Positions 4,970 through 26,978 of a stretch of DNA of 64,000 nucleotides are shown piece after piece; position 1 is the stretch's first letter, and every line of letters starts with the position of its first letter. The stretch covers positions 6,448,001-6,512,000 of the forward strand of contig AP026540.1 of assembly GCA_026075535.2 (NCBI GenBank). The letters are read 5' to 3'. Origin of the DNA: Tricholoma matsutake. Lineage: Eukaryota > Basidiomycota > Agaricomycetes > Agaricales > Tricholomataceae. A program made the position numbers and the translations under genes. Below the pieces are notes generated by a model, which saw nothing but the letters and a program-made list of their open reading frames with translations, had not been told where the DNA came from and searched no databases.

Positions 4970-7055
4970 TTAACAATATTCATCAATAATGTCTGCATTG
5001 TTCCTGTTTCCCTGCCCATCCCCTTCGTCGTCTTCATCACCTTGTCCTAGTAGTGCTGTAATTTCCATTCCAGTTTTCTCAACTAAAAAATGCTCTGTAT
5101 CTGGCATCAAAATCTCACCATCTTGGGCAAATTTGAAGTAAGGCACCATTGAAACCACTGAATTGATGTTTTTGATGTCTATCGCAACCAAAGCATTATC
5201 TCCCTGATAGTGGCATGCATATACGGCTTGGAATGAGTGCTTGAGTAATTCTTGATCAGGAGAGGAGGACATTGAGATGATGGCCAGATTGTGAATCTCT
5301 TCTGCAAATCGTAAACAAAAGAAGAATTGCACTTCGGCAAATTTGGAGTGATTATTAGCGTGAACCTGCATTTAAAAATTAGCAAGTTGGTAAAAAACAG
5401 AGTGGGTTTCTGTACCTTGACAACTCTGGTGTTTCGCAGTTTTCTTTGTGACCGGCACTCCATCCAACAGGATTGAGCAACTTGTCCATTTGGAAGATGA
5501 AGGTGTGCCCAGTGTCTAACTGCATGGGGCCATTGGTCTTATTAGGCCATCCCTTCTCATCCCAAAGTGCCATGATAGCAGATGCCTCTCAATCAGAAAC
5601 ATCAATAGCTGTTGACTGACAGGCTCGCAACAGGGCATAGCCATTACCAAGGTCCTTTCCACCCCATGGGACTTTTGTCAATTCATCTTTGGAGGGTAGG
5701 ACATTGGGCATGATGCTGAGAATGGAATTGATTTGGGCATGAAGCAGTCCACACTGGGCAATGTTGGCGTATGGATCCTTGTCCTGACATATTTCATCTC
5801 CAAGATTGCCAATTGCAGTCTCCATGGTCCATTGAGCATAACAACCTAGAGGCCCCACATGAATAGTCTCTGGTCTAATGTGCATGAGAAGATGGATACT
5901 ATGGCAAAGGAAATGAATCTGCTCTGCATGTCATTGGACATACAGATCCTCAAACTCCTTGTGGAATTCACACAGCAAACGATTTCCTTCCTTAATTTGC
6001 TCAGGGGATAGTTTGAGTTGATACATTACTTGAATGCCTCGTGTCAGTTTGCAAAAGTTTTGCCAACATTTTTCAGGCAGGATAGAATGAAGCAAGGCAG
6101 GCCCTAAACCAAAGAGATAGATTAGAAACTCCCAGGCTTTGTACCCCGAGTTAATTTTCTCGGCAGGGTTTCGAGGCACCTGGCCAAATGAGGAGGGCAA
6201 GTATGGCGTAGCCATCATGACAGTCTTGCCATGGGATTCCCATATTTTTCCAGTCAGAACTTTCCAGTCCCAACTATCCTTGGTATTGGGCTGGTAACAT
6301 TTCACTGTACCACACCACAATCCCAGGAGAAGGTCAGGATCATTGAGGGTGGTGAGGTGCATCAGATCCATGACAAATATATTTGGAACACCAAGGCTAT
6401 GATGCAAGCCACTGAAGATTGTTTGTTTGCTAAGTCCTGTCACAAGCCATCGAGTGTTATACTGTGATAGGTTTTGGGCAGAAAGAAGATGTTGGAGGTT
6501 TGCCTTGTAGTGCTCAGAGCTGTTTTGCCAAAACTCATGCAACTGAGCAAACATTACATCAGGGTGGTCACATCCTGCAACACTATAATTTGTGGGTTTT
6601 TGCAGAAGGGGGAAGTAGTGCCCATCTCCATTACGACGTTGTCCAGAAAGTGTGCAGAATAATCGGCAGCCACATTTTCCACTATGTCCAATGTTGCCGC
6701 ATGCATCTGTCATGGTGGGCCCATCAGCAGTAACCAACATAAGAAATGGAATGGACTTGGGAATATATGAGTGAGCCCATGCGTCCCAGATCTTCAAACC
6801 CTCCTTTTGCAAAGCAGAAATATGGGAGAGGGTGGGATAAAGATAAGAGTCTGTGTGTTTTGGCTTCTTTGGACCACCAATGAAGCCAGCAGGTATAACA
6901 AAGTGTTTCTTGTACCGTAAGTCAGGGGGGAGATTGTGAATCATGTAGATGAATATCCAACAGTCTGAGTCCTTATCTGCATAGAGCTGAGCACCATCGA
7001 GAGATATCTGAATCATCATGTCGCCATTCTTGATCTTTCCCACATGGCAGGCATC
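4970..7055 (-). pseudogene. Tnp2-family transposase, N-terminally truncated
   Basis: Transposase of EnSpm/CACTA type (Transposase_21 followed by a DUF4218-like region). Landmarks in order: SLDGAQLYADKDSDCW and NLPPDLRYKK near 6870-7010, FIGGPKKPKHTDS, then LQKEGLKIWDAW; an FVMDLMHL segment at about 6360; a DUF4218-like part (PETIHVGPLGCYAQWTME) at about 5790-5880; and a C-terminal tail after an intron at about 5371-5417. The family normally has several hundred residues before SLDGAQ; these are missing because element A inserted at 7056. The apparent start in the frame lies inside the LTR. TGA codons at about 5931 and 5589 break the frame where relatives read through. It cannot encode an active enzyme. 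Confidence 0.85.
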
Positions 7056-7511
7056 TGTCAAGACCAATTCTCTTGACTAGATTTCCAATCGTTTTCCACC
7101 CCCTTCCTGGCCACCTTGCATCACAGCCCACCTCCTATCAGCAGCACTGCCTAGAGGTGAAATTCCCTCATTTCCAATTTGATAAAATTAGTTATCTTGG
7201 AAGCTGGTTTGCAATTATCACAGCCTTGGAAACCCCTATCACCTCCGGACTTTAGTATTTAAGCTAGCTACTTTTGTCTTGTATCAGCAGTTGTAAATCA
7301 ACCAAGTCTCCCACTTAATTCTATCCCCTTTAAAACTCCAATTACTTTCTTAAGTCGATCTCAAACTCTTGCTCATCCTCTCTGGAAATTCTCCAGACCT
7401 CTGGTCATCTTCCTTACCCTTGCCTTGAAATTAGGACACTTGATGAGGAGAAGGGCGCAACTTCTTATAATTTGAAGCCAAGTCCTTTCTGCTCCCCCAC
7501 TTGGTATGACA
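7056..7511 (+). repeat. 5-prime LTR of element A
   Basis: About 456 bp, starting TGTCAAG and ending TATGACA. It aligns over much of its length with the longer LTRs of C: a shared TTTAGTATTTAAGC TATA-like box near 7250, AAAATTAGGACAC-like and CTTCTTATAA blocks, and CTTTCTG near the end. With no partner LTR, the right boundary is inferred from the TGTC/GACA end symmetry. Confidence 0.7.
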
Positions 7512-7687
7512 CATCAAGTAAACCCTGCCTCAGATTTCCGTAGGATTCCCTGTCTTACTTGATCCATCCTCTACAACTTCTATCATCCAGGTACAACCGG
7601 AATTCTGATGACTTCCCCATCCAGCTCAGTACTTAACAGTATTTACAAACTCTCACTTCTCTCATCAAATTGATTCCATCTTCTCCT

Positions 7688-9094
7688 ATGACTCCTACTG
7701 AGTCACAGACTCAACGAACTACAAGAAACTCCTGCTGTGCTGGCACAGTACCAGGATTATCAGCAATCTGCCGATCTATACTTCCTTCCCCTAGGCATGC
7801 TTCGACTTTTGGTGCATCCACCAGACCATTCAACATCTTCAGGCAAATCCGTTCTGGAGCACCCTCCATCAGTGCTAATGTCATGTCTCAACCTCTGGAG
7901 ACCCCTCGGAATATGACTCCACTTGAGTATGCAGAGAATGTTGGGCAGCCTAACCCCTTTGATAAGGAAGGTCCAGGTAAAGAGGACGGACTTCCCGGTG
8001 GACCTGACAACCCTAGCAGTCCTGATGGCCCTGGGGATGACCCCAGTCCTGACGACCCTGATGACTCTCTACCTCCCAATAGTGGAAATCCTGATCCAGG
8101 AGATAGGTTCCTTGATGCGCTATTCAAGCTCTCGGATAGTCTCCAAACCCTCTGGCAGAACCAAGCACCCAAGACCGAGAAGATCAAAGTTTGTGATCCT
8201 GACACTTTCGACAGGGCCAATCCCCGGAAACTTTGGGACTTCCTAGTCTCATGCAACCTTCACTTCTGCGATCATCCTCAGGTCTTTGCCTCCAATGAAA
8301 AGAAGATCTTATTCATCCTTTCCTACCTCAAAGGGTCAGCCCTTAGCTGGTTTGAACCTGGACTCAACAACCCAACAAATTCCGCCCATTGGATGTGGAA
8401 CTATGAGGTATTCCTTAGTGAGTTGGAAAGTAATTTTGGTCCTCACGACCCTGTTGGGGACACAGAAAAAGCTCTTTCAGAGCTCACAATGAAGAAAGGT
8501 GGAAGAATAGTGAAGTATAATGTGGACTTCTGGGAACTGGCTTCCTGGGTCAATTGGAATGAGGCCACTCTTCACGACCAGTATTTCCGTGGTCTTCTGC
8601 TCCATCTCTGCATAGAAGTCTTATGGGGGGGACAACCCGATACTCTAGCATCCCTACATCTTAAAGCCCAGGATGCTGACAACATCTATTGGATGCAGGA
8701 AGAAGAAACCTGCTTAGAAGCAAAGACCCCCGGGAATTCCACACACACTGGAAAGAAGGAATCTAAAGGTTCTCCTAGCTCCAATTCCAACACTCAGTCC
8801 AAACCCCAGCCCTCATCCAGCACCAACCACACAAGCCAATCCTTGTCTGGCAGCTCCTCTGGGTCGAAGAACAACTTCCAGAAGGACAAGCCAAAAAACT
8901 CTACTTCTGACAAGTTGGGGAAAGACGGTAAACTAACCAGAGATGAGCATGAACGCTGCATGAAAGAAGGACTTTGCCTCTACTGTGGCAAGAAAGGACA
9001 TGGAGCCAGGAATTGTCCAAAGTCCAAAGCGACCAAAGCCCATGCTGCAGCAGTCACCAAGTCCAAGCCAGACTCTGCAGACCCAAAAAAATAG
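7688..9094 (+). CDS. Gag protein of element A
   Basis: Capsid/nucleocapsid protein of about 468 residues. I chose ATG 7688 because C starts with the same MTPTE at 40022. Features: a disordered Pro/Asp/Gly-rich N-terminal region (about residues 80-140); a retrotransposon gag core with DPDTFD, LRDFL/LWDFL and LSYLKGSALSWFEPGL (about 170-240); and a single CCHC zinc knuckle near the end (CLYCGKKGHGARNC), which binds element RNA. The frame is intact. It ends in TAG at 9092, preceded directly by a run of seven A, and pol continues in the -1 frame. Confidence 0.85.
   Translation: MTPTESQTQRTTRNSCCAGTVPGLSAICRSILPSPRHASTFGASTRPFNIFRQIRSGAPSISANVMSQPLETPRNMTPLEYAENVGQPNPFDKEGPGKEDGLPGGPDNPSSPDGPGDDPSPDDPDDSLPPNSGNPDPGDRFLDALFKLSDSLQTLWQNQAPKTEKIKVCDPDTFDRANPRKLWDFLVSCNLHFCDHPQVFASNEKKILFILSYLKGSALSWFEPGLNNPTNSAHWMWNYEVFLSELESNFGPHDPVGDTEKALSELTMKKGGRIVKYNVDFWELASWVNWNEATLHDQYFRGLLLHLCIEVLWGGQPDTLASLHLKAQDADNIYWMQEEETCLEAKTPGNSTHTGKKESKGSPSSNSNTQSKPQPSSSTNHTSQSLSGSSSGSKNNFQKDKPKNSTSDKLGKDGKLTRDEHERCMKEGLCLYCGKKGHGARNCPKSKATKAHAAAVTKSKPDSADPKK
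9085..9094 (+). promoter_or_regulatory. Predicted -1 ribosomal frameshift site between gag and pol
   Basis: AAAAAAATAG: in the gag frame the codons are CCA AAA AAA TAG. Slipping back one base on the A heptamer gives AAA AAA ATA GTC and enters the pol frame directly. C has the same arrangement (GGAAAAATAG at 38649-38658 on the minus strand) with pol again in -1, though its slippery run is shorter. A slippery heptamer followed at once by the gag stop is a known way to set the Gag to Gag-Pol ratio. I did not identify a downstream pseudoknot. Confidence 0.65.
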
Positions 9095-12000
9095 TCTGCA
9101 ACCCTTGGGAACATGCCACTGGGGCTGAGGGTTGCAGTGACCTTTCCCAACTGGCTGCTTATGTCTGTCTCAACATGTCTGCTCTTTCTGATCCTGAATC
9201 CCTTACCATCCTGCAATCCCTTTCCAAACATTCCCTAAAAATCAGAACTCTTATCGACTCTGGTTCCTTGCATTGTTTCCTTGATTTGTGCAGGACAACC
9301 AACTTAGTGCTGGAACCATTCCTCCAATCAGACTCCAACTATTTGATGGAACTTGTACTCCACCATAACTCAAGTTGTGGAACTCCCAGTCACTTTTCCA
9401 TCTGGTGAAGTGTTCAATCTGACATTTCATGTAACCTCGCTGGACTCTTCCTGTTCTGCAGTACTTGGTCATAACTGGCTGAAGCAATACAATCCGTTGA
9501 TTGACTGGTCTTCAGGCCAGATGAATTTCTGTTCCACAGCTCAAAGAGGTCCTGCCCCCTCAATGTCCTCCGACTCTCCTATCTTGTGTGAGTCACCTTC
9601 ACCTCTGAACCTTCCAGCGGAAACCCGCAAAAACCCTGTAATCACTAAACCCTCGAAACTTGTACCTCCTGAGATCTCTTTCATCAATGCTGCCACTTAC
9701 ATGTGCACAAGCAAACTTCCTGGGGCTGTTGCCTTTCAGATGACATTCTCCCTGGAAGGACTGGTGGCTAAATCCAGGGTAGTGTCTGGGAATCCTCTGG
9801 ACCTTTCAGATGTTCCAGAAGAATATCATGAATTTGCAGATGTCTTTAACAAACAAAAAGCCAACACCCTTCCTCCACACTGTCCCTATGACCTCAAGAT
9901 AGAGACGGAGGATAATGATCCCCCACCTCCAGGTCGCATGTACTCCCTCTCTCCCTCTGAGCTTGAGGCCCTCCAAATATTCATTGAAGAAAACATTTGC
10001 TCAGGCTTCATCCACCCCTCCAAATCCCCTCACAGCGCTCCTATACTTTTTGTCAAGAAAAAGGATGGGAGTCTCCGACTTTGCGTTGACTACCGGGGAC
10101 TCAACCGCATCTCAAAGAAGGACTGCTACCCACTTCCTCTAATCTTGGATCTCCTGGACTCTCCAGGAAAGGCGCGTGTGTTCACCAAAATTGACCTCCA
10201 GCATGCCTATCACTTAGTCTGCATTGCTGAGGGAGATGAATGGAAAACCACTTTCTGCATGCACCACGGTTCTTTCGAATGGCTGGTGGTTCCTTTTGGA
10301 CTCACCAACACACCTGCTGCCTTCCAGTGCCTCATGAACGACATCTTCAGTGACCTATTAGATGTCAGCGTCATTGTCTACCTCAATGATATCCTAATCT
10401 ACTCCAACGACATGAGTCAACATAAGGCTCACATCAAGGAAGTCCTCTGGAGACTCCGGAAAAATGGGCTCTACACTGCTCCGCAGAAATGCAAGTTCCA
10501 TAAAGACAGCATGGAATACTTGGGTCTCATCCTCTCTCTGGATGGGCTCCAGATGTCTGAAGATAAAGTCAAAACCATCCTCAACTGGCCCAAACCTTGA
10601 AAGATTAAGGACATTCAATCCTTCCTTGGATTCTGCAACTTCTACCGACGGTTCATCCATGGATATTCTGACATTGTCATTTCTCTCACCAGACTCACCC
10701 AGAAGCACATGCCTTGGGACTTTGGTAAGAAATGTCAAGAAGCCTTCAACAAATTAAAAGAAGAATTCACTCATGCCCCAGTACTCACTCAATGGCTACC
10801 GGACTCCTGCATTATCTTGGAGACAGATGCCTCAGACTATGCCTTAGCAGCAATTATTTCCATCTATACCTCGGATGGAGAAATCCACCTGGTTGCATTC
10901 CACTCCCGTTCCTTCAACCCGGCTGAATTGAACTACAACACCCACGACAAAGAACTTCTGGCTATCTTCGAAGCTTTCAAATGCTGGTGACAGTACCTTG
11001 AAGGTTCCAGAAATCCAGTAGATGTGGTCATGGATCACAAAAACTTGGAATACTTCAGTACCACAAAGCTCCTTACTCGTTGTCAAGCTCAGTGGTTAGA
11101 ATACCTTTCACAGTTCAACCTCACCATCCGCTTCCGCCCTGGTAAACTAGGGGCTAAACCTGATGTGCTCACTAGATGCTGGGATGTCTACCTCAAAGGG
11201 GGAAATAGCGACTTTGCCTCAGTAAATCTGAGCAACTTTGGTCCAGTCTTTACTCAAGAACAACTCACATCCTCTCTCTGAGCCACTTTCCTTGCTACTC
11301 CTATCATCTGTCAAGCTGTTCTCATGGATGTTGAAAAACTCCACAATGATATCCAATCTTCACTTCCTCTTGATCCCATCTCCTCCTCACACCTTCCATC
11401 ACCATCTGCCCCAAATTGGTCTCTAGATGACAGTGGACTCCTCCGCCACTTCAACTGGATTTATGTCCCAGATGTCGCGGACCTCCATCTTAAAGTCTTA
11501 CAATACAAGCATGACCACATCCTCTCAGGTCACTATGGGCAAAACAAGACCCTTCAGCTTATCCATTCCAATGGTCACACTGCCATACTAGTCATTGTAG
11601 ACCAACTCTCCAAACAGGGTATCTTCATCCCCACAGTAAATGAAATCATGGCACAAGAACTCGCTAATCTCTTCATCATGCATGTCTTCTCCAAACATGG
11701 TGTTCCATCCCACATCACCTGCAACCGGGGTTCCGAGTTCATTTCCCATTTCTTCCGCTCTCTCGGGCAAGCCCTGGACATGAAAATCCACTTCACTTCA
11801 GGTTACCATCCAGAAGGCAATGGACAAACTGAATGCCTCAACCAGACCCTTGAACAGTACTTGTGGATCTTCTGCAACTACCAACAGGACAACTGGTCCC
11901 AGCTTTTACCTTTGGGGGAATTTGCATACAACAATGCTCCCTCAGCTTCCACCGGAGTTTCACCCTTCTTTGCCAACAAGGGTTACCACCTGAACATCAC

Positions 12001-12616
12001 AGTTTTCCCAGAGCGCAAACTAGCCTCACAATGCACATGCCATTTTGTGGTCAACCTTGATGATCTCCACCAGGAACTCCGGAAGCAACTCACAGAAGCA
12101 CAGAAGCGCTATCAAGGTCCTGCAGATAACTGCTGGGCCCCCGCCCCTGACTTCAAAATTGGCGACTATGCCTTTGTCAAAGGTGAGCACTTACACACTA
12201 CACGACCCTCCAAGAAGCTCTCAGAAAAGTTCTATGGCCCTTTCAAGATCATTGCCCATCCGGGTACCCACTCGGTTACCCTTTGACTTCTGGATCACCT
12301 CCAGGCTGTCCACTGGGTATTCCATCTCTCCCAACTAGAAGAAGACACTCCCAACACAATTCCTAATCATATTCAACCTCCACCTCCTCCGGTCATTATA
12401 GACAATGAACTGGAGTATGAGATTGCAGAAATCCTTGATTCAAAAATTGACAACCGCCATCAATGCAAGCTACTCTATTTTGTACAGTGGGAAGGTTACC
12501 AAGGAACCGACGAAGAAACCTCCTGGCTTCCAGCTACAGAACTTGATCATGCCCAGGAACTCGTTACAGACTTTCACACTCGTTACCCAAGGAAACCCAG
12601 ACCTCTTTCCACTTAA
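9092..12616 (+). pseudogene. Pol of element A (PR-RT-RH-IN-chromodomain), inactive
   Basis: Protease motif LIDSGS at about 9250; reverse transcriptase 9900-10600; RNase H with ETDASDYALA and [13 protein letters not shown] segments (10800-11060); integrase 11500-12290; C-terminal chromodomain (YEIAEILDS to VQWEGY) ending in TAA at 12616. Lesions: the RT catalytic box reads YLND instead of YLDD; the integrase lacks the HHCC zinc finger and first catalytic Asp (a deletion at about 11565 compared with C); the second Asp is Asn (CNRGSEF instead of SDRGSEF). TGA stops lie at 10598, 10988, 11279 and 12284. The element cannot move by itself. Confidence 0.85.
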
Positions 12617-12698: not shown

Positions 12699-13511
12699 CT
12701 ACTCCTCCCCCACTCCTTCACCCTCTGCTTCTTCTGTGAGTCCTGGCAGCTCCCCTTGCACCTTGAACTCCTCCTCCTCTTTGTCCTCTTCTTCTTCATC
12801 CCATTCCTCCTCAGACTTCTGGTTCCACTCTGGATCCAACGCCCCTTGGATGTCCGACATTGTTTCTTGGATGCCCATCACACCCTCACTTATGACCCAG
12901 AGCTCCTGGAGCTCCCACATTTCCTTCTTCATCCCCTTTACCACCCCCACCAACTCTCTAAGCAACTCCATTACTCCCTCATTCTCCCCAAGCCCGGGTC
13001 CCACCAGCAACACCTGCCCCTCCCACACAACCTCTTTGCACTTGTGTTTCGCCTTGGTGCAGGGCTTGCAGGCCTGACCCTGGGTTCCCATCCAGAAACA
13101 CGACAATTTTTGATTTGAACATCTACTAGAAGTCAGCATGGAAGTGCAACAAGAATAAAATGTGACTCACCTTTTGCATGGAATGGTGGCTTGTAGCCAC
13201 ACGGGGACCTCAGTTTCTGGCACCTCCACCCTCACCTTTCCTTTCGCCTTCTTCTTGGGGGAGGCACTCCTCTCAGCCTCATCTGTCTCTGTGGCTTTCC
13301 AGTTCTTTTCTGCCCTCTTGGTGGCAGCCACCTTCCTTTGCTTCTCTTCTGTGGCCTTCTTCTCCACCTCTACTCTGGCTGCCTCCCTCGCAGCCTCCTC
13401 AGCGACCCTGCACTCCTTAGCCTCCCTTGCCTCTTCCTCGAGCTGGAGCTCCTCCATCAACTTTTCTTGCTGGGCCCTGAGGGCCACAATCTTCTCCACG
13501 TGTGAGGACAT
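12699..13511 (-). CDS. Antisense gene in gypsy element A: coiled coil plus Zn2Cys6-spaced cluster
   Basis: A two-exon gene on the strand opposite to pol, tail to tail with it (82 bp between stops). Exon 1 is 13171-13511 (ATG 13511), the intron 13123-13170 (48 nt, GTGAGT..TAG), exon 2 12699-13122. The spliced product is 254 residues with no stop. Residues about 5-85 are a charged Glu/Ala/Lys/Arg helix predicted as coiled coil, followed by a basic SPKKKAKGK patch. Next comes a cysteine cluster with spacing CX2CX6CX9CX2CX6C, matching GAL4-type Zn2Cys6 clusters; the intron falls between the first two cysteines. The tail is very acidic. A related gene sits at the same place in C. Splicing at the second of two adjacent TAGs gives the CX2C spacing and matches C. 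The role is unknown; DNA binding is inferred only from spacing. Confidence 0.7.
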
Positions 13512-13612
13512 GTTAGTATGGTGGGTGGGAAGGTGAAGGTTAGTGTGGTGGTGGTGGTGGTTGAAGAAAAACCTGGGAACCAATCAAAATCAACATACCC
13601 AATTTGGAGTCG

Positions 13613-15903
13613 AACCTTTGAGGCACCATCAGTTTCTGGGTGGTAAGCGGTAGAAAGCTTATGTTTGATTCCTGTAAGTTTCATCAGCACTTTCCAGAAT
13701 TTAGAGACAAATAGCTTGTCTCAGTTGCTGATGATCTCCAGAGGACAGCCATTTTCACAATACCAATTGTTGAAAAAGATATTGGCAAATTCTTCTGTGG
13801 ACATGTTCATGTTACACACCATTAACTGCACGTCGGCCCCTAGTTGATCAGTCATTGTTACGATCTGATCAAAGCGGTAGTGGACCAATAAAATCAATGG
13901 CTATGGATTTGAAACAGCGGTCAGGAATGGGTAAGGGATGGAGTGGGCCAGGTGTTTTGTGTGTATGGGATTTGTTGCGTTGGCATTCTCTGCAGCCAGG
14001 GACATAAGTGGAGATGAGGTCTTTCCTCATGTTGGGCCAATAGAACTCATTTCGCAATGAGGAATAGGTCTTTTTGCCTCTGAAGTGCCCAAGGTGATCG
14101 TGTGCTAAGTGGAAGAGTTGTTCGCAGATGTCGAGGTATTTGGGAATGATGAGCCATGTACCTATGAAAAGTAAACCATTTTTCAATTTAATGTCAAGTT
14201 TGCTATTGATTACTTTTCATTTGATGTCATCAAGTATGCTGCAGCACCAACAAGAGTCATGTTCATACCCCTTACAGATTTTGTGGAAGAGCGAGGGGTC
14301 ATTTTCAATGTTGAAGGTAGCCGCGACCGTGATGTGTTTGGGTGCAGGGTCAGGTAGGTGTGATAATGTGTCTGCGACAGTGTTGTCCTCACCCTTGATG
14401 TATGTAATGGTGTGTTTGTACTGTGATAGATACTCCATCCATCTTGCTTGGCATAGTGAAAGGTCTTTCTGCAAGTCAAAATTCTGGGGTGTTTTATGAT
14501 CTGTGTAGATGTTTATGTGCATACCCAGGAGATCTATGCGCCACTTTGTTAATGTGCACATGATACTCAGTAATTCTTGTTCATGAACAGGGTAGTGGAG
14601 CTCTGGTCCTCTCAGTTGTCTGCTTTCAAACACAACCGGTTGTGATGTTTCCCAAGTTTTGCTGAAAGATAAGACTGCACCTGTGCATTGATTGGTGGTG
14701 TCGCAGGTGACATAGATTTCGTTGTTTCCTGGGTTGTGGTGGTCAATGGTTGTGAGGCAGTTGCGTCCAAGAACAAGTCCTTTGATTGCTTTATAAGCTT
14801 GTTGGTGATCTGTGGTCCAGCGGGGGAAGTCTTTGTTGCATTCCTTTTTGGTTAACGGTGTAAGAATGGTGGTGTGTTCTGCAAGTGAGGGAAGGAAAAT
14901 ACTGATGTAATGCACTAGGCTGAGGAATTGGCAAACATGTTTTGCTGATGTAGGGATGGGCCAGTTCATGATTCGTTCTACCTTGCTGCTGTCTGCTTCA
15001 ATTCCCCTAGCTGAGATATGGTGTCCAAGGAAATTGACTTCTGTCATGAAGAGCTGTGATTTCTTAAGTGAGCAGTATAGGTGGGTGGCACGCAAAGCCT
15101 CTAGTACTTTTGTGATGTTTTCACAATGTTCTGCTGAAGATGAGGACCAGATGATAATGTCATCTAAGTAGACATGGCAGATTTTCCCTATGAGTTCTGA
15201 GAGTGCGAGGGTGACACAACATTGGTGTGTGGCTGGTGAATTTCTTAGTCCCATGGGCATGACAACCCACTCCCAAAAACTGAAGGGGGTGAGCATTGCT
15301 GTATATTTGATGTGGTCCGGATGCATGAGTGTTTGAAAAAAGGAGTTGGTCATGTCAATTTTCCCCCAGATTTTGCCTTTTGAACAGTTGGTGAGAATAT
15401 CATTGATTCAGGGCAGGGGGTAGTGGTCGGGGATGGTGATGCTGTTGAGTTTACAATAGTCATTTACCCATCGGGGTAAGATGGTTGGGTCGGATTTTGG
15501 AATTATGAAAGAGGGCGAGGCATATGGGGAGGAGGACAGACGAATGCATCCTGCAGCATGGTGTTGGTTGATCAATGTCTTCCAGCCAGCTCTGTATTTT
15601 TAAGGGCATGAGTATGCATGACCAACTGAGATTGGTAGTCCCGGCTTGATCTCTATATAGTGGTACACATCAGTAGGCAGGTTTGTTGCATGTGTGATAT
15701 CACTAGGAAAACAGTCCTTGAACAAGGCTTTGTATTTGCAGTCAATGGATTGGAGGATCTTCTCCCCCACTAGTTGTTGTATTCTTGTACAGACAGCTGC
15801 AATGATGCATGGAGAAGATGTTGTGTGTGCTTCGAAGTTGAAGTGTGAGGGGTTCTCATCAAATAAGTTCATAAGTTTGCAATGTACCAAGCATTGTAGT
15901 TTC
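13613..15903 (-). pseudogene. Pol half of gypsy element B
   Basis: Minus-strand continuation of the gag-protease half at 29915-32853; removing D (with one GTTTC copy) joins the two in frame. It contains an RT with YLDDIIIW (about 15170), RNase H (14370-14800, YTDHKTPQNF), the integrase zinc-binding HHCC module (13930-14150, HLGHF and CRECQ) and part of the DDE core, ending in HPETDGAS at about 13613 where A begins. A TGA at about 15405 and a TAA at 15600 interrupt it. The RT differs from those of A, C, D, E and G, so B is a separate, older lineage. Confidence 0.8.
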
Positions 15904-16639
15904 TGTTAAGGGCAAAGCCTCAACCACTCGATCTAGTTGATGTCATTTGATGAGGTGCTTCCTCGACGAGTCATTCGGCATTAGTCTTACTCGGAGCGTC
16001 CGATGTAAGATAGGTAGTGCACTCTAGCAGGGCTTCTGCATAGAGTCGTTCAGGTTCATGCACTAAGGGGCTTCCTTAGTGGTTTCAAGTAAGTTTGTGA
16101 GTTGCAAGTTAAGGCTGTTAATTGCCTAGATCTAAACTAAGGACATCCCTACTACGAGTTGCAGTACTTATACTACGAGGGAGGTCCTTATCGTCCAATC
16201 GGAAAGATAGATGTGTATTAAGTAAGAATAGAAACAATAGGCCTCATGCCTTGCATGAGGTGTCCGATGTCACAGAGTGCTGCGGCGCAGCATGTCAGGA
16301 AACAATAAGAGATAAACCTCATGCCTAGCATGAGGCATCCAATGTCACGGATCCAATGTCAAGGATCCAATCGTGAGAGTCCGACGTCATGGACCTCATG
16401 TCAAGAGGCTGTTGTATCACAGCATGTGTGGGAGTGGGTTCGGGTGCATGGAGTCACCATGCGTCAAGGGTGCCTTGCATGGGAAGGGGATCAAATGCAT
16501 GCAGTCGGCATGCGTCGTGTGTGTGTCTGGTGTCAAGGACATGCCCTAGGCATGAATCATGGAGTGCCTCCTGTCTGGAGGGGATCGTTGGGTTGGTCAG
16601 GTCGATCGGGTCCCATGAGTTACAAGGAAAATTGTAACA
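15904..16639 (-). repeat. 3-prime LTR of element D
   Basis: 736 bp in window orientation TGTTAAGGG..TTGTAACA. It matches 29266-29914 except for indels (extra CATGAGG-rich repeats near 16250-16370) and scattered transitions. The inner edge on the minus strand is preceded by GTGGGGGGGTAA, the likely polypurine tract (16640-16651). Confidence 0.9.
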
Positions 16640-16900
16640 TTACCCCCCCACTATGGTCAAAAGTTCCACACTTCGACCTAAATCTTCATCTCTCCTTCGT
16701 GGTCTGATTGGGCGTGGTCTGGTTATGTGGGTAGGTCGGGGTCAAGGGGTATGATGGAGGAATCGTTTGTGTCCAAGCTTGGACCGTGATCGGGTTCTTT
16801 TCGTTTTATACTGCTTTTAGCAGTGGTGTCAAAGAGTCGGTGGTGTCGTCGGAAGGGGGAGGGGTGTGTAGGGTTTGCGCAGTATCAAGGGTAATCACTG

Positions 16901-16981
16901 TAGTTTTACATCCTTGCGGATGATCGGTAGTTTAATGTCTTTGCGGACGGTCAGTAGTTTAACGTCTTTGTGGACGATCAG
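16901..16981. repeat. 27-bp tandem repeat, three copies
   Basis: Three 27-bp units, each beginning TAGTTT, at 16901, 16928 and 16955, in element D between the accessory ORF and the 3-prime LTR. Read on the minus strand in one frame they give a nine-residue RKDVKL-like repeat, so they may once have been coding. Confidence 0.8.
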
Positions 16982-17066
16982 TTCACACCTAGTTGTGCTC
17001 AGTGGTCTGGGGTGTTGGTGTATGGGGGTGTTGGCTGGAATGCAGCAATGTCCCCAGTTCTCCATG

Positions 17067-17552
17067 TCATCTGAATAAGAGCTGCCTTGCCAGCTCGAAT
17101 CCGCTTTCTTTGTTGTAGTGGGTGTTCCACTGAAGGTCATTCCACAGTAGTGGGCTAATCCCCGCTAGTGGTCTCCTGCCTGGGGTCAGACCATCACGGT
17201 CGACAACAAATTGTTCGGGGAGATAGTCTCCGCCATCTAACTCTTCTTCGAAGCACCACTCCTCAAATTGTGCTTTTACCCAGGTCAAATCCATTTTCAT
17301 GCTCCTTTGCGCATAGAGGCAGCATGTTGGGCAAGTCAAGGATATTCTCTTTATCCAGTCATCTCTGTTTATCCAGAATGTGATTCTGTGTGGGCATTCC
17401 CAAGAGGGTTGCCCCGGCAGTCTGTTCATTCTTGGTGACTGGTCAATGACTCGTCGTCCAGTCACCATGTTCTTCTTGTATTCGTTCTTTATCGAAAGGG
17501 GGTGGGGGTGGGAGTGAACATGAAGGGCATCAACGTTCAGTGGGTCAATCAT
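17067..17552 (-). CDS. Accessory sense ORF behind pol of element D
   Basis: An open frame of 161 codons on the same strand as D pol, starting 71 bases after the chromodomain stop. I recognise no family. It contains His/Pro-rich residues at the start, then a compact segment with cysteines (WECPH, LTCPTCCLY) and many tryptophans (FWINRDDW, TWVKAQFEEW, LLWNDLQW), which suggests a folded domain and not random sequence. The reading frame is intact although neighbouring pol has several stops. It could be an extra element protein or captured host sequence. Confidence 0.5.
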   Translation of the reverse strand: MIDPLNVDALHVHSHPHPLSIKNEYKKNMVTGRRVIDQSPRMNRLPGQPSWECPHRITFWINRDDWIKRISLTCPTCCLYAQRSMKMDLTWVKAQFEEWCFEEELDGGDYLPEQFVVDRDGLTPGRRPLAGISPLLWNDLQWNTHYNKESGFELARQLLFR

Positions 17553-17623
17553 CGTTTAGGGGGTATCAGGGGTGTCGTTTGGCTGGGGTTTGGTTCAGAT
17601 AGTGGGGGTTTCTTGGGTTTCCA

Positions 17624-20600
17624 TCAGAGGTGGTACCTCTTCTTATATGCCGTCAGGATCTCGGGGGCATTCTTTAGGTTCAATTCAGGTTCCCATGTGT
17701 TTTCAGATGTCGGGTAGTCAACCCATTTCACGAGGTAACGGCGTGTCTTGCCATGCTTCTTGTGTGCGATGATCGCTTCCGCTTCATATTTGTTTTCTCC
17801 TTCCACAAGGTCAGGTGGTGGAGTCAGGAAGTTTCGCCCATGAGTGTTGTTCTCATGGTATTGCGTGAGTAAAGCCGCATGGAATACCGGGTGGATCTTC
17901 CATCTCAGCAGCAGTTTCAATCGGTAAGTCATTCTTGACAAGGCATCTTCAATCACGAAAGGCCCTTCTTGTTTTGGCGCCAGTTTTCTTGTTGGGTAGC
18001 CAATCTTCAGGTTCTTGGAGTCATGCCATACTTGTTCTCCAACCTTGAACGGTTCATATTGCCCTTTCGTTCGGGCAGCCATAGCCTGTCTGGCTAGTTT
18101 GTGTGCAGCAAGAGCTTCCCTTCTCGCAGAGAGAAGTTCTTGGATTCTCTGTTCGGTGGCCGGCATGTTCGTCTTTTCATATGGGGTGGGGATAGTGCAT
18201 GGTTGATATCCCATCATCAAGTAAAACAGCAAATGTTTTACTGCGGAGTGCATCTTCTGGTTATGCGCAAATTCTGCTGTTGGGAGATAATGCTCCCAAT
18301 CTTCTGGTTTGTTCGAACAGAACATGCAGAGGTAAACCTCTAGTTCTTGGTTTACTTGCTCTGTTTCTCCATTGGTCTGGGGGTGATAGGCGGTGCTCAT
18401 GGATAGCTTGATTCTGAGCAGTCGTCTGAGTTCTCGGAAGAGTTTGGATGTGAATCGAGGGTCTCTGTCTGAGATGATTCTTCTGGGGAGTCCAAATCTG
18501 GTGTACACATGGCGCAGGTAGAGGTCTGCGGCGCCAAGTGCGTCGATCGTCTTTGCGCAAGGGATAAAAATTACCCCCTTTGTAAGACCATGGTCTACCA
18601 TGACCATGATTGAGTCAAATCCATTTATTATGGGCAGGTCCGTAATAAAATCTGTCGTTACCAGCTCGAATGGTCTGCTGGCATCGGATGATATCAGTGT
18701 CGGCAGTGGGGTTGTCGGGTGTGTATTCACTTTCATTTGCTGGCACTTTGTGCAGCCTTCGATGTACTTCTTGATGAAGTTGGCCATTCCTGGCCACCAG
18801 TAGTCTCGTCAGATCAGTTCAATTGTCTGCCATTGTCCAGGGTGCCCTGTCGTGATGCTATCATGATATTTCTGTATGATCGCTCAGTGGAGGGTCTCGT
18901 CCTGTGGCACGTAGCATCTGTCTTTGAAAAAGAGCAGGCTGTCTTTGAATTTCCAGTCCTCCAATGCAGACTTGATTGGGGGGGTTCCATTGTTCTTCAG
19001 GGCTCGTAAAGCGTCATTTACGAGGTTGTCCTTCATTATTGCTGAGACCAGGGCTCCCTGGAGTTCAGCATCGATCATTTTCACGAATAGTTCATCGGTG
19101 AGGATGGTCTTGTCCTTGTTATTGGTGTCTTCTTCAGCTATATGATCTGCTCTCCTTGATAGGGCATCAGATTGTACCATCTGTGATCCGGGTACGTGTT
19201 GTAGCTTCAGGTCAAATTGTGACAGGTAGATGCTCCATCTAGCCTGTCATCGGTTTAGTTTCTGTGGCTGATGGAAGTACGTCAGGTTCTTGTGATTGGA
19301 CAGTACTGTCACAGGGAATGGTGTCCCCTGTAGGTAGTGTCTCCGTGTTTCCAGCGCTCGGATTACTCCCAATAGTTCCCAGTCATATATCTCGTAATTT
19401 CTTTCCGCTTCGTTGAAAGAATGTGAAATGTATCCGCATGGGTGCCAGTCTCCATTGGCGTCCTGTTGTTTGAGTACTGCACCTGTCGCAAATTTCGAGG
19501 CATCAGATTCCACCACAAATGGTTTCGTTGCGTCTGGCATCAGCAGTACTGGGGTTTTGTTGAACTTCCTTTTTAGTGCATTGAATGACTGCTGGCAGTT
19601 GTTCGTCCATTCGAATTTCTGGTTCTTCTTCATCAAATCATTTAGCAGTCTGGCCAGATCCACGAAGTGTCTGATGAATCATCGATAGAAGTTTCCGAAT
19701 CCTAGGAAGGATCTTACATCCTTCACTGTCCTTGGTGTGGGCCAGTCTTTGATCCCAGCCAGTTTTGTGTTGTCCATTGCAAGTTCATTGGGTCTGACGA
19801 TCATGCCCAAGAACTCGACTTCTTGCATGTTGAATTTGCACTTCTCTATTTTCAGGTAGAGATCACATTGTCGTAGTCGTTTGAGGACCCTTTCGGTCCT
19901 TATCCGGTGTTCTTCCGTTTTTGAGAAGATCAGGATGTCATCCATATAGATGACGAGCCATCCTTCATCTAGCATATCTCGGAAGAGATTGTTCATCACC
20001 GCCTGGAATGTTGCCGGTGAGTTGCACAGCCCAAAGAACATCACCATTGGCTCAAATAGCTCTCGGTTAGTCTTGAATGCTGCCTTCCACTCGTCTCCTT
20101 TCTTTATCCGTACGTTATGATATCCCCATTGAATATCAAGTTTTGTGAAAAATCTCACTCCCTTCAGCTTGTCCAAGAGGTCTCCGATCAGTGGCAGGGG
20201 GTAGTTGTTCTGGATCGTTCCTTTGTTCAGATAGCGATAGTCTTGGCAAGGTCGTAGAGCATCAGAGTCCTTCGACACGAAGAAGAACGGGGATGCCATG
20301 GGTGATTTTGACGGTCGGATGTATCCTTTCTCCAGGTTTTCATCTAGAAACTCATTGAGTTTCTCTTGTTCTTTCAGTGTCAATAGGTAGACTTTGCAAT
20401 CCTTTGGTACAAAGCCTTCCTTCAGGTCGATTGCATGATCCCACGGTCTTGATTCTGGGAATTGTTCAGATGCGGCTTTCTCAAATACCTGCCTGTACTT
20501 CTGGTATTCTGGTGGCAGTAAATCGTCCAGGGTCCATTGGCTAGTCTCCTTTCCCTCCTCTTGCTCATGCGCTAGTCGTTGGGATATGGATGTCTTTGCT

Positions 20601-22519
20601 CTGATCCATATGTCTGAGTTGAGTAGGTACCGTGGGGAGCCCTTGCCTTTCGTGAGCCTGCTGATTGTGTTCGTTTTTTGGATGTATCTGTGTGTCGGCT
20701 CTCGATGTTCCTCCGTCAGGGGCAGTTCTATGTCTGGTCCGAATAGGCCAATGACCAGTTCGCCTTGCACGTATGTGATCAACACCAAGTCATCCTCGAT
20801 TGTGTCTTGTTCAGGGGTCTGGTTTGTCATTCGTATGTCCATGCCTGTGTCTGCCAGTAGTTCTTCGTCGGGTACCTCTTCAATCTTTACTTGAGGTGGG
20901 GTCTCCCTGGGCATAGGTATTCCGGTGTCGTTAGTACCATAACCTGGGGTTCCATGATTGCATATCAGGGTAGCCTCCTGATGAGGGTCTTTTGTCCTAT
21001 TTTGTAATGCCGTTTTCAAGTGTCGTTTGCTGGTGCTTTCCTCCCCTGTGGAGGTCAGCAGTTCCTTCATCTTTTGCATGATTCGTCGTGCCCTGTCACA
21101 TTCATTGTTTTTACCCTTTTCCAGTTGTTTCTTCTTCTGGTTCTCTTGGGTTTTGGTGACAGCACGTCGTGCTGCTTCAAGGTTTCTGGTTTCTTTAGGA
21201 GTGTTGCTGCTCCTGGTCTTTGCGACAGCTATCTGGGTGGAATTTAGTTCTTTGGCTTTCTTTTCGGAAAGCCTTTCCTTCGTTTTTGCCATGGCTAGTC
21301 GTGCTCGGGCAAGGTTTCTCTCCTTCTCTTTGGAGAGTCTTTTTCTTGTTTTTGCCACAGCCAATCTGGCTTGGGCAAGATTTCTCTCCCTTTCTTTTTC
21401 TTCAGAGAGCCTTTGTCTTGTTTTGGCCACGATGCGTCGAATTCGGTCGTTGGGTGCTTCCCTTTCAGTGTTGACCCTGGGGAGCTTTAGGGTGTTCAGG
21501 AGGGCTCGTTTGGCTCTTCTTGTCTTCTCCAAGATCCATTGGATTTGAGCCTGTTGTTCTTCGTCTCAGAACTCAAGAGTTCCTTTCTTCCAATTGATAA
21601 TCGGGTTCACCTCCCGTAGCCATGACAGGCCCAGGATCACCGATTCCTTGCCTAGTCCAGTGACTAGGTATTCCATTGGGTAGCTTCGTCCATTGATGTG
21701 GAGTCTCCCTTTCACATATCTTGTGATCGTTCCCTGTCTGTTCAGGGTTCCATCTATGTTTGTGGCCCAGATGGTGTGGCCTAAGGGATATGTCCTGATC
21801 CCTTCTCATTCGACAAATTTCAAGTCAATAAAGACTCCTCCTGCTCCAGAGTCGAGGAGCACATTTGTTGCGACGTCTTTCCCGTTGTCTGACTCAGCTA
21901 CCCGAATAGACAGGTGCATAGATTGTCTATTCATGGTAGCTAAGAGTACAGACCCTAGGGAGACTACAGCAGTGACTGGCATTGTATCAGGCCGCTGTTC
22001 TAAAAACCCGATTCCTCCATGAGTTTGAGGGCTCGTTCCTTTTCTTCTTTGTCTAGTTCATCCAGCATCGTGCGGATCTTTTGGTAGGTGTCCACCCCAG
22101 TCTTCTTCTGGGTGAAGCGGTTTCGGTAGGGAGGGGGCGCTGACCCCATCTGAGTGGGGTTCTTTCCATCCCTGTGGTCGGACGATCAGTGTCCCGGTTG
22201 GTGGCAGATGAAACACAATCCCTTTTGGAGGTGTTCCACACATTCTTGGTTTGTCAGTTGGTTGATGTTGAGAGAGGGCTGTCCTTTCTTCATCATTTCT
22301 TTTGTCATCTGGTTTTTCCTGGTCTTCCCCAGGATTGCCATGGCCCGTTTCCATTGGCCTTCATATTTCGAAGCTGCCTTTATCCAGCCTTCGAGAGTGT
22401 TGGGCACTGTCTCCATTGTGTGCACCCTCTTCAGTAATTTGGGGTGCAGTCCATCCATGAAGTACTCGATCATGGCTGCATCTTCAGTGATTCCCATCCT
22501 GTCTTTCAGGATGCAGAAG
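17624..22519 (-). pseudogene. Gag C-terminus, protease and Pol of element D
   Basis: Reading downward: gag end with a zinc-knuckle start (CFICHQPGH, about 22190) whose next codon is TGA; protease with LLDSGAGG near 21850; a linker of charged helical repeats (about 21080-21450, units like AKTRQRLSEEKER); RT with YMDDILIF at about 19950; RNase H (19247-19663); integrase HHCC and DDE core (17900-18860: TTDF, SDRDPRF, HPQTNGETEQ); and a chromodomain with YLVKWVDYP at about 17700. Catalytic residues are present. In-frame TGA codons at 18809, 18884, 19247, 19679, 21566 and 21806 sit where the family has Arg. Confidence 0.85.
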
Positions 22520-22524
22520 TTCGC

Positions 22525-22950
22525 TATAAGGGCAACCTCAGCCTCTAGCAAAGGGAAATCCGAAGTTAAAATTATGCTACATAATACAGGGATTGGGGGT
22601 GCACCTAGCAAAGGGAAATCCGAAGAGAAAACTCTAAGGATCCCCTTGCTGATGCCCAGTATATGTGAAGACGACAAAAATCAAATATAACCTAAAAATA
22701 GAAAAAGGCGGAGATAGGCAGATCAAGGCCGCCGAATGACATCATACCAAGGGGTATGTGTCGGAAGGGGTACTCCGCCTCTAAATATAAAAGTGTCAAC
22801 ATGTACAAACATGATAGCAAGGGAAAATTAGTAATAAAATCCGGAAAAATCATAGAAAATGAAAAATAGAAGGAAATGAGGTGGGGAAAAATATAGGACG
22901 AACATAAAAAATAGGAAAAACACACAGGGCACCTCCCTAGTCCCCTTACA
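22525..22950 (-). repeat. 3-prime LTR of element E
   Basis: 426 bp. On the minus strand TGTAAGGGG..CCCTTATA, so the end is TA and not the usual CA. The same length as its partner, with no indels. Confidence 0.95.
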
Positions 22951-22991
22951 TCACCCCCTCTCTAAGATGCATCGCCCCGATGCATTCGAAA

Positions 22992-25900
22992 TCATATACG
23001 ACCAAAGTCCGTGACTTGAATGCAACGTGGTGCAGCAGTGTGCCATCGGTGGAATTCCTTGATTAACCGGGGGGCATTTATGTCAGACTCTTCGACCCAT
23101 GAGTTCTCCTCATACCCATAACCCTTCCAATGTACCAAATACTGGAGTTTTCCTTGACGTAAATGGCTGTCCAAGATTGACTCGACTTCATATTGGGGTT
23201 CTCCCTCGATCACTGTAGGTGGTGGTGGTGGGTGTGAATGGCGTCCCGGAAATGGATCTGGGGGAGCTGGAAGCAATTTGACGACATGGAAGATGGGATG
23301 GAGTCTGGACATGGAGGCTGGGAGGCGTAGATGATAGGCATGTGTTCCAATGCACTTGACAATGGGGAAAGGTCCCAAGAAGTGATGAGCAAGTTTCTTG
23401 GATGGACATGTAGTGGAAATGTCACTGGAGTCAAGATAAACTCGATCACCAACCTTGTACTGAGGGGTTGGGGAGTGCCGTTGGTTGTAAAATCGTGCCA
23501 TGTCGTCCTTCGCCTTTGCTAAGGCTGCCCTTGCCTCCTCCAAGCTATCCCTCATGCGTTCTGTGAACTCATTCACTGTCTCGATGTGTGAGGGAGTTTG
23601 GCGAGGTTCAAATCCCATGCGTGGATGTCATCCAGTGTCTAAGAGGAAAGGGGTCTGTTGAGTGGAAGCATGGACATGGTTGTTGTATCCAAACTCGGCC
23701 AAAGGAAGGAGATCATCCCAATCGTCCTGGCGTTCATTGACAAAGAGGCAGATGTACTGCTCCAGTTCCTGGTTGACTCGCTCCGTCTGGCCATCGGTTT
23801 GTGGGTGATAAGCGGTTGAAGCGAGGAGTTTGATCCCCAGGAGTTGGTACAGCTCACGAGTGAACTCTGCCATGAACTGAGGGCCACGATCCGAGAGGAA
23901 GGCACCAGGAAGTCCATGTAATTTCCACACGTGGTGGAGGTAGAGTCGAGCAGCACCTAGGACACTGACAGTGGTGTGAGTGGGAATGAAGTGAGCGCGT
24001 TTTCCCACTGAGTCAACTGTGCACATCACCGCATCAAACCCGTTTGACTCTGGCAATTCCACCACAAAGTCGACGCTGACAACATCCCAACGACTCTCTG
24101 GAACAGGAAGAGGGTGTAGCTCACCAATAGGCTTGCGATGAGGAACCTTGGTGCGTAAGCAAAGGTCACAAGTGCGACAATACTGACCAATGAGCCACGA
24201 CATTTGTGGCCACCAATAGTTCCATGAGGTGAGCTCCAAGGTCTTCCAGCGTCCGGGGTGGCCAGCAATCTGTGAGTCATGGTGTTGGGATATGATGCGC
24301 CGGCGAAGGTCTGGGTCATTGGGAACATATGTGATCCCTGAAATACAACAAGTCCTCCTTTTCAGCCCACTCTGCCGCACATAAGGAAAGGGTCGATCCC
24401 TTCCTCAGTTCTTTAACAGCTCGGGCGACAACATCCTCATGTAAACCGCTATGGTTTGCGCAACGAATGTCACATAGGATGTCCCGCTCCTCGCCCTGGG
24501 GTGCAATGCCTTCCAGTGCCCGAATGGTGAACAGCTCTGGCTGCAACAGCACAATGTTTTGGTTGTCACCGCTGCCATCCCCATGGTCTGCACGTCGGGA
24601 TAGGGCATCGGTCTTCCCCATGCTGCGACCCGGATGGTGGTGTAAGGAGAAGTCAAATCTAGATAGATACAGGGACCAATGAGCTTGACGACGGTTCAAT
24701 TTCTTGGCCGTCATGAAGTACTCGAGGTTCTTGTGATCCGTCCAAATTTCCACCTTGTGTTGGGCACCCTCGAGGAAGTGTCGCCACTCCTCTAGTGCAC
24801 GCATTATCGCCAACATCTCCTTGTCATGGATCTCGTAGTTTCTCTCTACAGCACTAAGGCTTTTGGAGTAGAACGCAACAGGATGCCACTTCTGGTCCTC
24901 TGGAGACTGCTGAGACAACACGGCGCCTGTTGCAAAGTCAGAACTGTTGGCTTCTACACGAAAAGGACGCGAATCGTCAGCAAAGGTAAGGATCGGAGCG
25001 GAAGTGACCATCTCCTTAAGCTTTTCGAATGCCTCCTGTTGTGCATTATCCCACCTCCATGCCTCCTTTCCTGTCAAGTCGAACAGCGGTCGTGCATGAT
25101 GTGAGAAATCCTTGATAAAACGCCGATAGAAATTGATGAAGCCCAGGAAAGACTGCACCTCCTTCTTGTTCGTGGGCATCGGCCAAGCTGTGACCCCGTT
25201 TACCTTGATAGGATCCATCTCCACTTGACCCTCCGAGATAATCAGGCCAAGGTACTTGATCTTGGTCCTTTCGAACTCGCATTTGTCCTGACGAAGGTAG
25301 AGTTTGTACCGTCGAAGTCGCTCTAGGACGAGGCGCGTGATGCGATGGTGCTCTTCAACTGTGCGAGTGAAGATGAGGATGTCGTCGAGATAGATGCAGA
25401 CAATGCCTTTGAGGATGAGGTCATGGAAGATGTCGTTCATCATGGTCTGAAAGGTGGCAGGGCTATTAGTAAGGCCAAAGAACATGACAAGCGGTTCAAA
25501 AAGACCACGGTTGGTATGAAAGGCTGCCTTCCACTCATCTCCCTCCTTTATCCTCACATTATTATAGCCCCAACAGACATCGAGCTTGGTGAAGTATCGG
25601 GCTCCACGGAGCTGGTTTACGAGTTCGGAGATGAGGGGTAGTGGGTAGCGATTTTTGACTGTGATGTTGTTGAGCCTTCTGTAGTCTTGAACCAGTCGAA
25701 GTGAGCCATCCTTCTTCTTGACAAAGAAAAAGGGAGAGGCCATGGGTGACTTCGATGGTCAAATACGTCCAGAGGCCAGGTGCTCGTCGATGAACTGGTC
25801 AAGCTGCCGTTGTTCTTCCGGAGAGAGAGGATAGACCTTGCAGGATGAAGGGGTTGCGCTGGGGGTGAGTTCGATCGTGTGATCCCATGGCTTACGCGCA

Positions 25901-26862: not shown

Positions 26863-26978
26863 TCGCTGCGAATAGGAAAATCCTGCTCCTCTACAACTTC
26901 CAACTTAATCTCCTCTGCAACTTGATCCTTCGCTTCCTCAACATCTACAAGTGCCAACAAATCTTGCAGGAGTTCGTC

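Follow-up and report, generated by a model that had tools for sequence, protein, structure and literature searches.

What is an intact, intron-bearing gene doing on the strand opposite the pol gene of a broken retrotransposon? The question is raised by positions 13511-12699 (minus strand) of the window, by which we mean the whole 64,000-nucleotide stretch of Tricholoma matsutake DNA that was analyzed. Here a two-exon gene encodes 254 aa, is interrupted by a 48-nt intron and contains a CX2CX6CX9CX2CX6C pattern in the spliced frame; the first-pass annotation had given the same coordinates, codon number, intron length and cysteine spacing, all of which were reproduced. Exon 1 (13171-13511, minus strand; ATG at 13511-13509) was delimited by its reading frame and by alignment in 30 copies, the intron (13123-13170, minus strand; GTGAGT...CTGAC...TAG, readable on this strand only) by the frame and the copies, and exon 2 (12699-13122, minus strand; stop codon at 12701-12699) by its reading frame. 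A chance ORF was rejected: when the spliced sequence was shuffled with its dinucleotides preserved, none of 2000 versions stayed open, and none of 2000 retained the cysteine spacing.

The neighbor on the plus strand is a broken chromodomain Ty3/gypsy element of T. matsutake (element A), with whose pol the antisense gene lies tail to tail. Its plus-strand parts are a gag ORF (7637-9094; DUF4939 above the Pfam cut-off, Retrotrans_gag just below), an RT ORF (9347-10600; box YLND, Pfam, with protease named from position only), an RNase H piece of pol set apart by a stop (10601-10990; named from position), a broken integrase piece (11282-12286; Pfam matches below cut-off) and the chromodomain with the end of pol (12398-12616; Pfam), whose stop codon (12614-12616) is 82 nt from the antisense stop. 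PF00078 and PF00385 were over their cut-offs, and the integrase core domain and SH3_Tf2-1 were below theirs in this broken copy. Element A is a chromovirus (a chromodomain Ty3/gypsy element) by its RT and C-terminal chromodomain, with the integrase matches sub-cut-off. The pol decay described in the first-pass annotation was thereby borne out in outline: pol is divided among several ORFs, the RT box reads YLND and the integrase is broken. No 3' LTR was seen for element A; similarity to other copies extends no more than about 107 nt upstream from the ATG of the antisense gene, and past that point lies RT-like sequence of another element on the other strand. On the other side of the element, an ORF at 5931-7076 (minus strand) had a Transposase_21 (tnp2) match over cut-off.

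To collect copies of the gene we searched the genome at the DNA level (13 contigs, 161,040,721 bases; a telomere-to-telomere T. matsutake assembly has been published, as stated in the part of PMC10211490 drawn on here). The search gave 348 candidates, of which the best 40 were scored, and all 40 matched at 81-100%, the window's own place included. Thirty copies (L009-L038) were read, comprising 20 long loci, taken with some 7 kb of flank towards pol, and 10 short stretches. Corresponding searches with the protein of a second element in the window (element C) and with a distant relative (P0001), both described below, gave overlapping lists of 636 and 1217 candidates, of which the best 40 and 150 were scored; the P0001 hits L044 and L046 coincide with places among the 40 scored.

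The first-pass annotation had held that copies lying at random in position and strand with respect to gypsy elements would count against its reading. In this genome the antisense gene lay opposite the pol strand in 28 of 28 loci with flank (20/20 long loci and 8/8 others), a count that, as loci were found through the antisense gene, does not give the share of elements that hold it. Pieces of the same pol were found past the gene's stop, on the opposite strand, in all 20 long loci, and the integrase end was 308-676 nt from the gene in 19 of them, with a nested element lying between in the remaining one (L021). The eight other flanked loci, also with pol opposite, were four of the C family including C itself (L039-L042) and four found through P0001 (L043-L046). 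Distances between gene copies followed those of the element's own genes (Mantel r 0.73 with IN, 19 copies, 0/2000 permutations; r 0.71 with RT, 17 copies, 0/2000; r 0.67 with gag, 7 copies, 32/2000), and divergence was faster in the antisense gene than in pol (mean 0.136 vs 0.088 for IN). Strand, pol-matched distances and a constraint like that on gag, RT and integrase (see below) support the view that the gene belongs to the element.

The gene was also sought in the other elements of the window. Element B (15963-29914, minus strand) has a chromodomain pol and presumed LTR pieces at 15963-16639 and 29309-29914, which are parted by a marY1-like insertion. The antisense proteins of A and C had no match inside element B, so not every chromovirus here has a recognizable copy of the gene. 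The insertion itself (22524-28570) is a 6047-bp element with 428-bp direct repeats that are 98% identical and with minus-strand RT and RNase H; the published marY1 length is 6047 bp with an LTR of 426 bp (given in the part of PMC10211490 drawn on here), and, judged from these lengths, the insertion is probably a full-length marY1. Like the elements under study, marY1 is a gypsy-type LTR element of T. matsutake with an apparent copy in the window; unlike them it is about 6 kb with a 426-bp LTR (PMC10211490, PMC10627285, each in part), and the A, C and P0001 proteins had no match inside the copy at 22524-28570. Further along, a fungal protein kinase ORF (PF17667, 46.6 bits) is flanked by direct repeats of roughly 320 bp that share 98% identity and lie 3.6 kb apart (55821-59785); this is perhaps a mobile element with a captured kinase gene.

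Element C carries a real homologue of the gene, as had been noted at first pass, on the plus strand and in damaged form: exon 1 (33998-34365) is frameshifted, the intron (34366-34411) is 46 nt long and at the same place, and exon 2 (34412-34967) has lost one cluster cysteine. The LTRs of C are on the minus strand, the 3' LTR at 33239-33886 (93% identical to 40128-40766, with the inner edge set at a motif) and the 5' LTR, assigned through the same match, at 40128-40766. The A and C families are about 74% identical in pol, and the antisense gene has the same place and strand in both. Tandem 27-nt repeats occur at 40712-40925, close to an edge of C's 5' LTR; one unit is present at the edge of its 3' LTR, and none or one chance octamer at the 3' edges of the other loci inspected. 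As candidate binding sites these repeats led nowhere.

Beyond this genome, P0001 was the sole relative found among 5.8 billion proteins (218 aa on a 970-nt contig, about 50% identical). It crosses the exon junction without an intron and the first part of the N-terminal region is absent; P0001 is probably the spliced transcript of a relative, the contig being taken for RNA solely because the intron is absent. No homologue beyond P0001 was found, with one hit in each search (3506 candidates; 7992 scored; 1), and among viral contigs 28 pattern matches gave 0 confirmed.

The intron gives the direction in which the gene would be read. Its GT..AG borders have minus-strand orientation and would function in antisense RNA only, in agreement with the first-pass annotation, and a stop codon inside it closes the unspliced antisense frame, so that the 254-aa protein as described requires spliced antisense RNA. 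The donor GT was kept in 30/30 copies and the acceptor AG of the 48-nt intron in 27/30. Use of a second AG instead would shorten the intron to 45 nt and turn CX2C into CX3C; this acceptor was kept in 25/30 copies (by eye), so the copies by themselves barely separate the two, and the 48-nt intron is favored because P0001 reads CKRC (CX2C) at this point, which makes the 45-nt form the less likely. The intron falls past Cys-Lys, inside an Arg codon, and of 16 further loci, a pattern search placed it at the same point in 12, where it measures 45, 46, 48, 50 or 51 nt; lengths that are not multiples of 3 indicate an intron that is removed, not read through. The pattern was unmatched in the other four loci (L043, L045, L046 and L053), at least one of which has no donor by eye. 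Shortly upstream of the acceptor is CTGAC, CTAAC or CTGAT, which resembles a branch site (consensus CTRAY). No intronless copy was seen among the 30 copies and the 16 further loci. Genomic RNA that is reverse-transcribed runs the other way and cannot be spliced here, which would explain why the intron is never lost. From these signals we infer that the antisense gene is transcribed and spliced.

We then asked what the reading frame itself records. The first-pass annotation had set the intact frame of the window copy against the dead pol beside it. The frame is indeed intact, but we rejected its intactness as evidence of selection on this copy, since the frame is open to the stop in 5/30 copies (determined by a script without an ATG requirement, with M at the aligned start in three of the five) and close copies diverge almost neutrally; the copies' own frame was stop-free in 18/30 (gapped codons skipped). 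Omega was calculated pairwise between existing copies and corrected for CpG decay through the replacement changes expected from the observed mutation classes; unalignable stretches of L023, L035 and L037 were masked for omega and for cysteine counts and left unmasked for indels. Deep pairs (>17% apart, 133 of 435), which share branches so that pair counts are not independent, held 9983 replacement and 8092 silent differences and gave an omega of 0.55 (bootstrap over codons 0.44-0.64, from 25 of the 133 pairs), and all 435 pairs gave 0.60. Four of the five other frames gave 1.14-1.38 in deep and all pairs (1.22-1.38 in deep pairs). The fifth, on the pol strand and with the same wobble position, gave 0.58 in deep pairs and was rejected as the selected frame, having a stop common to 29/30 copies. 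Close pairs (13 disjoint, ≤12% apart) gave a near-neutral 0.92 (0.76-1.10) for the antisense gene and 0.92-1.07 in every frame. The dN/dS comparison proposed at first pass, in which a value near 1 was to count against its reading, was favorable in deep pairs but not in close ones.

By the same method, gag, PR-RT, RNase H and IN gave 0.56, 0.60, 0.33 and 0.52 in deep pairs (1.26-1.43 one frame off) and 0.73, 0.80, 0.60 and 0.81 in close pairs (5-9 pairs each). By this pairwise measure the antisense gene is constrained between diverged copies like gag, RT and IN and less than RNase H, and it looks looser than pol among close copies. Exonic indels present in at least two copies were multiples of 3 in 7 of 11 cases, including the two that were most widely shared (+3, 13 copies; +6, 17 copies); four, common to 3-4 copies each, were not, and private exonic indels were multiples of 3 in 7 of 39. 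Our reading is of a gene selected together with the element's own genes during copy multiplication, in copies that drift once inserted.

These patterns bear on two explanations in which the protein would matter little. In the first, the antisense RNA itself would matter, through double-stranded RNA or self-limitation, and the reading frame would be incidental; in other elements, antisense transcripts may exert their effect as RNA (PMC7264820, in the part consulted), but frame-specific purifying selection, widespread 3n indels and the conserved cysteines and splice sites all speak for a translated product, and we consider the RNA explanation very improbable. In the second, to which we give hardly any weight, the gene would be a host transcription-factor gene, recently captured and passively carried. 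The intron would suit this origin, as would the fact that Zn2Cys6 genes in fungi belong to the host; a place and strand common to families about 74% identical in pol, and a constraint like that of pol between diverged copies, do not suit a recent passenger. No host source was found, in a search that is weak here, as the Zn_clus profile is blind to the cluster and protein searches fill with element copies. Nothing decisive bears on whether the gene was of host origin.

The mutation spectrum touches on a third explanation, in which the protein would antagonize host silencing (e.g. RNA-dependent or CpG-methylation-based) instead of regulating a promoter. Repeats of T. matsutake show CpG-biased C-to-T mutation (PMC6980582, in the part consulted), the element copies compared here are CpG-hypermutated too, and this would mean a silencing pressure to escape. 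Against this, Pfam returned no silencing family for the protein, only weak sub-cut-off matches, several of them over the acidic tail, and we judge the explanation improbable. As an observation in its own right, the share of CpG transitions among close-copy differences was 0.46 for the antisense gene, compared with 0.64-0.72 for gag and pol (7637-13511 in L009-L038).

The predicted protein begins with a charged N-terminal region (aa 4-75; 13287-13502, minus strand; defined by homology and in part by the P0001 model), which is probably a long helix or coiled coil: the AlphaFold2 model of P0001 has a helix at 2-48 with block pLDDT of 93-98. A basic patch, SPKKKAKGK (aa 84-92; 13236-13262, minus strand; sequence), is a possible nuclear localization signal. 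It is followed by the six-cysteine cluster CX2CX6CX9CX2CX6C (aa 112-142; 13038-13178, minus strand), split by the intron in the Arg codon following the first Cys-Lys, and the protein ends in an acidic C-terminal tail (about aa 213-254; 12702-12827, minus strand; sequence).

Conservation of the cluster was counted in the 30 copies, whose rows were unselected, since rows of alignments A2 and A3 had been picked by cysteine pattern and are biased for cysteines (the pattern occurs in 30 sequences in 46 sources, 21 in A2 and 29 whole in A3, where the window's row is cut to 44 residues). The six cluster cysteines were kept in 30, 29, 30, 30, 30 and 30 of 30 copies, which upholds the cysteine conservation that the first-pass annotation had put forward as a check. 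A cysteine outside the cluster was kept in 18/29, and the mean codon holds its commonest residue in 85%.

Whether this cluster is of the GAL4 type, as first annotated, received a mixed answer. The Zn2Cys6 spacing consensus is CX2CX6CX5-12CX2CX6-8C, and the cluster spacing and the six conserved cysteines fit it. Further likenesses to fungal Zn2Cys6 proteins (PF00172) are the basic residues within one triad and the acidic region. However, PF00172 (Zn_clus) gave 8.1 bits against a cut-off of 21 for the window protein; among ten further proteins it gave 8.0 bits for P0001 and nothing for nine exon-2 pieces, from which the first cysteine is absent. In Zn2Cys6 regulators a helical region usually comes after the cluster, and here it precedes it. 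Likewise, the basic triad that contacts DNA is the first one in Zn2Cys6 domains, and in both the window protein and P0001 it is the second triad that aligns to the start of the PF00172 profile (positions 1-15).

We therefore scored each triad by position against triads of the host's own Zn2Cys6 domains. PF00172 passed its cut-off at 21 places in the genome, none of which are scored places of the A, C or P0001 searches; 20 of the 21 were read, and 9 first and 17 second triads were taken, leaving out L061 (odd match) and L071 (without match) and classing lone triads by eye. In this small host set, the leave-one-out score was correct for 9/9 first and 16/17 second triads. Every copy was then scored, superseding an earlier score on picked variants (8/9 and 6/8). 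In the A family, whose scored copies are related to each other, the second triad scored as a host first triad in 30/30 and the first as a host second triad in 29/29 readable copies (the first triad of L017 is unreadable because of a stop). Among 12 further loci, the second triad scored as host first in 7 and near -1 in 4, with the register lost in one (L051), and the first triad scored as host second in 5, while the remaining 7, which all belong to the C family, scored 0.8-1.7. The scores thus point clearly to triads that are swapped relative to host Zn2Cys6 domains in the A family; in the C family the first triad does not clearly resemble either host kind.

The same evidence has to be weighed for the view that the cluster is a different kind of zinc module, one for protein contacts (GATA-, RING- or LIM-like), in which six cysteines have reached the Zn2Cys6 spacing by convergence. 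PF00172 was sub-cut-off or absent in all 11 proteins, nine of them being exon-2 pieces, the triad order is swapped, and the C family first triad is of no clear host kind. Structure searches gave no fold match: Foldseek of the P0001 model against the PDB returned 0 matches, and a PDB search by sequence over the cluster returned weak matches only, with E values from 3.4 upwards, to chains of RING-type ligases (XIAP). On the other side, the Zn2Cys6 pattern accommodates all six cysteines and both spacings, and the A family triads score as host triads (30/30 second, 29/29 first). We regard another module as a tenable minority view. Structural modeling of the cluster, another check proposed at first pass, was informative for the N-terminal helix of P0001, which was confident, and not for the cluster, where block pLDDT was 37-53 in two AlphaFold2 runs and the fold is not confident. 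No bZIP family was among the Pfam matches up to E 10 for the window protein.

The position of the ATG suggests where the antisense RNA would start. LTR pairs were clearly assignable in 4 of the 20 long loci (90-97% identical), where the LTR match ends 117-142 nt from the ATG; in C it ends about 111 nt from the ATG, giving 111-142 nt across the five elements measured. This proximity of the ATG to the 3' LTR makes it plausible that the LTR, or sequence next to it, serves as a promoter in the reverse direction. The first-pass annotation had given about 100 bp for C and thought such a promoter probable; the distance is close to what we measured, and the promoter stays putative. Upstream of the ATG is a B-box-like motif, GGTTCGACTCC (13606-13616, minus strand), with its near end 94 nt before the ATG. 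The form GGTTYRNNTCC occurs in the direction of the gene in 25/30 copies, starting 81-112 nt from the ATG end, and also in L047 and L048, and it adjoins a conserved block by a polypurine tract. For GGTTYRANTCC, 2 occurrences were found in the window vs 0.74 expected, and ARAGORN found no tRNA in 12 loci.

Taken as an account of function, the reading we favor, at a probability of roughly 0.5, is that a chromodomain Ty3/gypsy lineage carries this as an accessory gene, the likeliest job of which is to bind DNA and regulate expression of the element itself. Transcription of the antisense RNA would begin at the inner edge of the 3' LTR or close to it, and the RNA would run against gag-pol, be spliced once and be translated into a small protein with a charged helical N-terminus, a basic patch, a six-cysteine zinc cluster, a helix and an acidic tail. 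This protein is probably dimeric and nuclear, would bind zinc, may bind the element's own LTR or host chromatin, and would act in trans on the element's transcription, by a logic like that of HBZ/APH of HTLV. A role in the control of the element's LTR or chromatin would be the most economical. The narrower version, in which a spliced antisense DNA-binding regulator uses a triad-swapped Zn2Cys6 module in HBZ-like self-control, is offered as a tentative proposal that we would not expect to hold in every part.

A competing role for the same protein is that of an element-encoded structural or targeting cofactor (a nucleic-acid chaperone, a particle component or a tether of the integration complex). 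Its constraint between diverged copies equals that of gag and integrase; a cysteine cluster, basic residues and a helical N-terminus would equally suit RNA binding or assembly, and the element already has a chromodomain. The opposite strand and the intron, however, suit a small nuclear factor over a bulk structural protein, and the acidic tail and the resemblance of the triads to host Zn2Cys6 domains point the same way. We regard a cofactor as a serious but less probable rival and keep the regulator of the element's own expression as the preferred reading.

In the first-pass annotation no described function was known for this arrangement, a statement that proved too strong: the layout has been described in plants and in Boty/brtn (PMC7264820, in the part consulted). 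Antisense additional ORFs between pol and the 3' LTR are reported for Grande (gene23), RIRE2 and Retand (TRP28) (PMC7264820, PMC11963269). According to the same parts of these papers, TRP28 is antisense, has predicted DNA binding and is in 97% of clusters of Retand (PMC11963269), and Grande gene23 is nuclear, with a promoter upstream of gene23 driving transcription (PMC7264820, PMC11963269). As described there, the plant ORFs resemble the matsutake gene in being antisense, in lying between pol and the 3' LTR, in being retained by most copies and in being suspected DNA-binding regulators; they differ in belonging to other protein families, and Retand is not a chromovirus. Word searches of PMC7264820 and PMC11963269, in the parts available, returned neither "zinc" nor "intron". 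Botrytis cinerea has an antisense gene, brtn, in its Boty-like Ty3/gypsy elements (Zhao et al. 2011, through parts of PMC7264820, PMC8365987, PMC4227169 and PMC5987419); this host is an ascomycete, and brtn was compared by description of its layout alone.

The proposed regulatory logic is comparable to that of HTLV-1, where both spliced and unspliced antisense RNA of the 3' LTR yield HBZ, which lowers 5' LTR expression; HBZ and APH-2 are nuclear, and HBZ/APH regulate the element's own LTR (PMC10186651, in the part consulted). The likeness is one of layout only, namely spliced antisense RNA from the 3' LTR: HBZ/APH are bZIP or other proteins of infectious retroviruses and have no homology to the matsutake protein.

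We file the matsutake gene as a variant of the antisense accessory genes of LTR retrotransposons and not as a PF00172 member. No such gene in a basidiomycete was found in the literature, as searched through titles and abstract openings; as far as searched, the basidiomycete case, the conserved antisense intron and the swapped cluster are new.

Antisense genes between pol and the 3' LTR were already described in plants, Botrytis and Sclerotinia. What T. matsutake adds is a large natural set, a single telomere-to-telomere genome giving hundreds of candidate places in a first search, and in this set a constraint like that of gag and pol can be shown for such a gene. The intron marks antisense expression unambiguously and makes it directly testable. 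Should DNA binding by the swapped cluster be confirmed, the GAL4-type domain would gain an unusual variant; and if the narrower, triad-swapped version of the regulator reading is true, the gene would represent a new, element-specific branch of a large class of fungal transcription factors.
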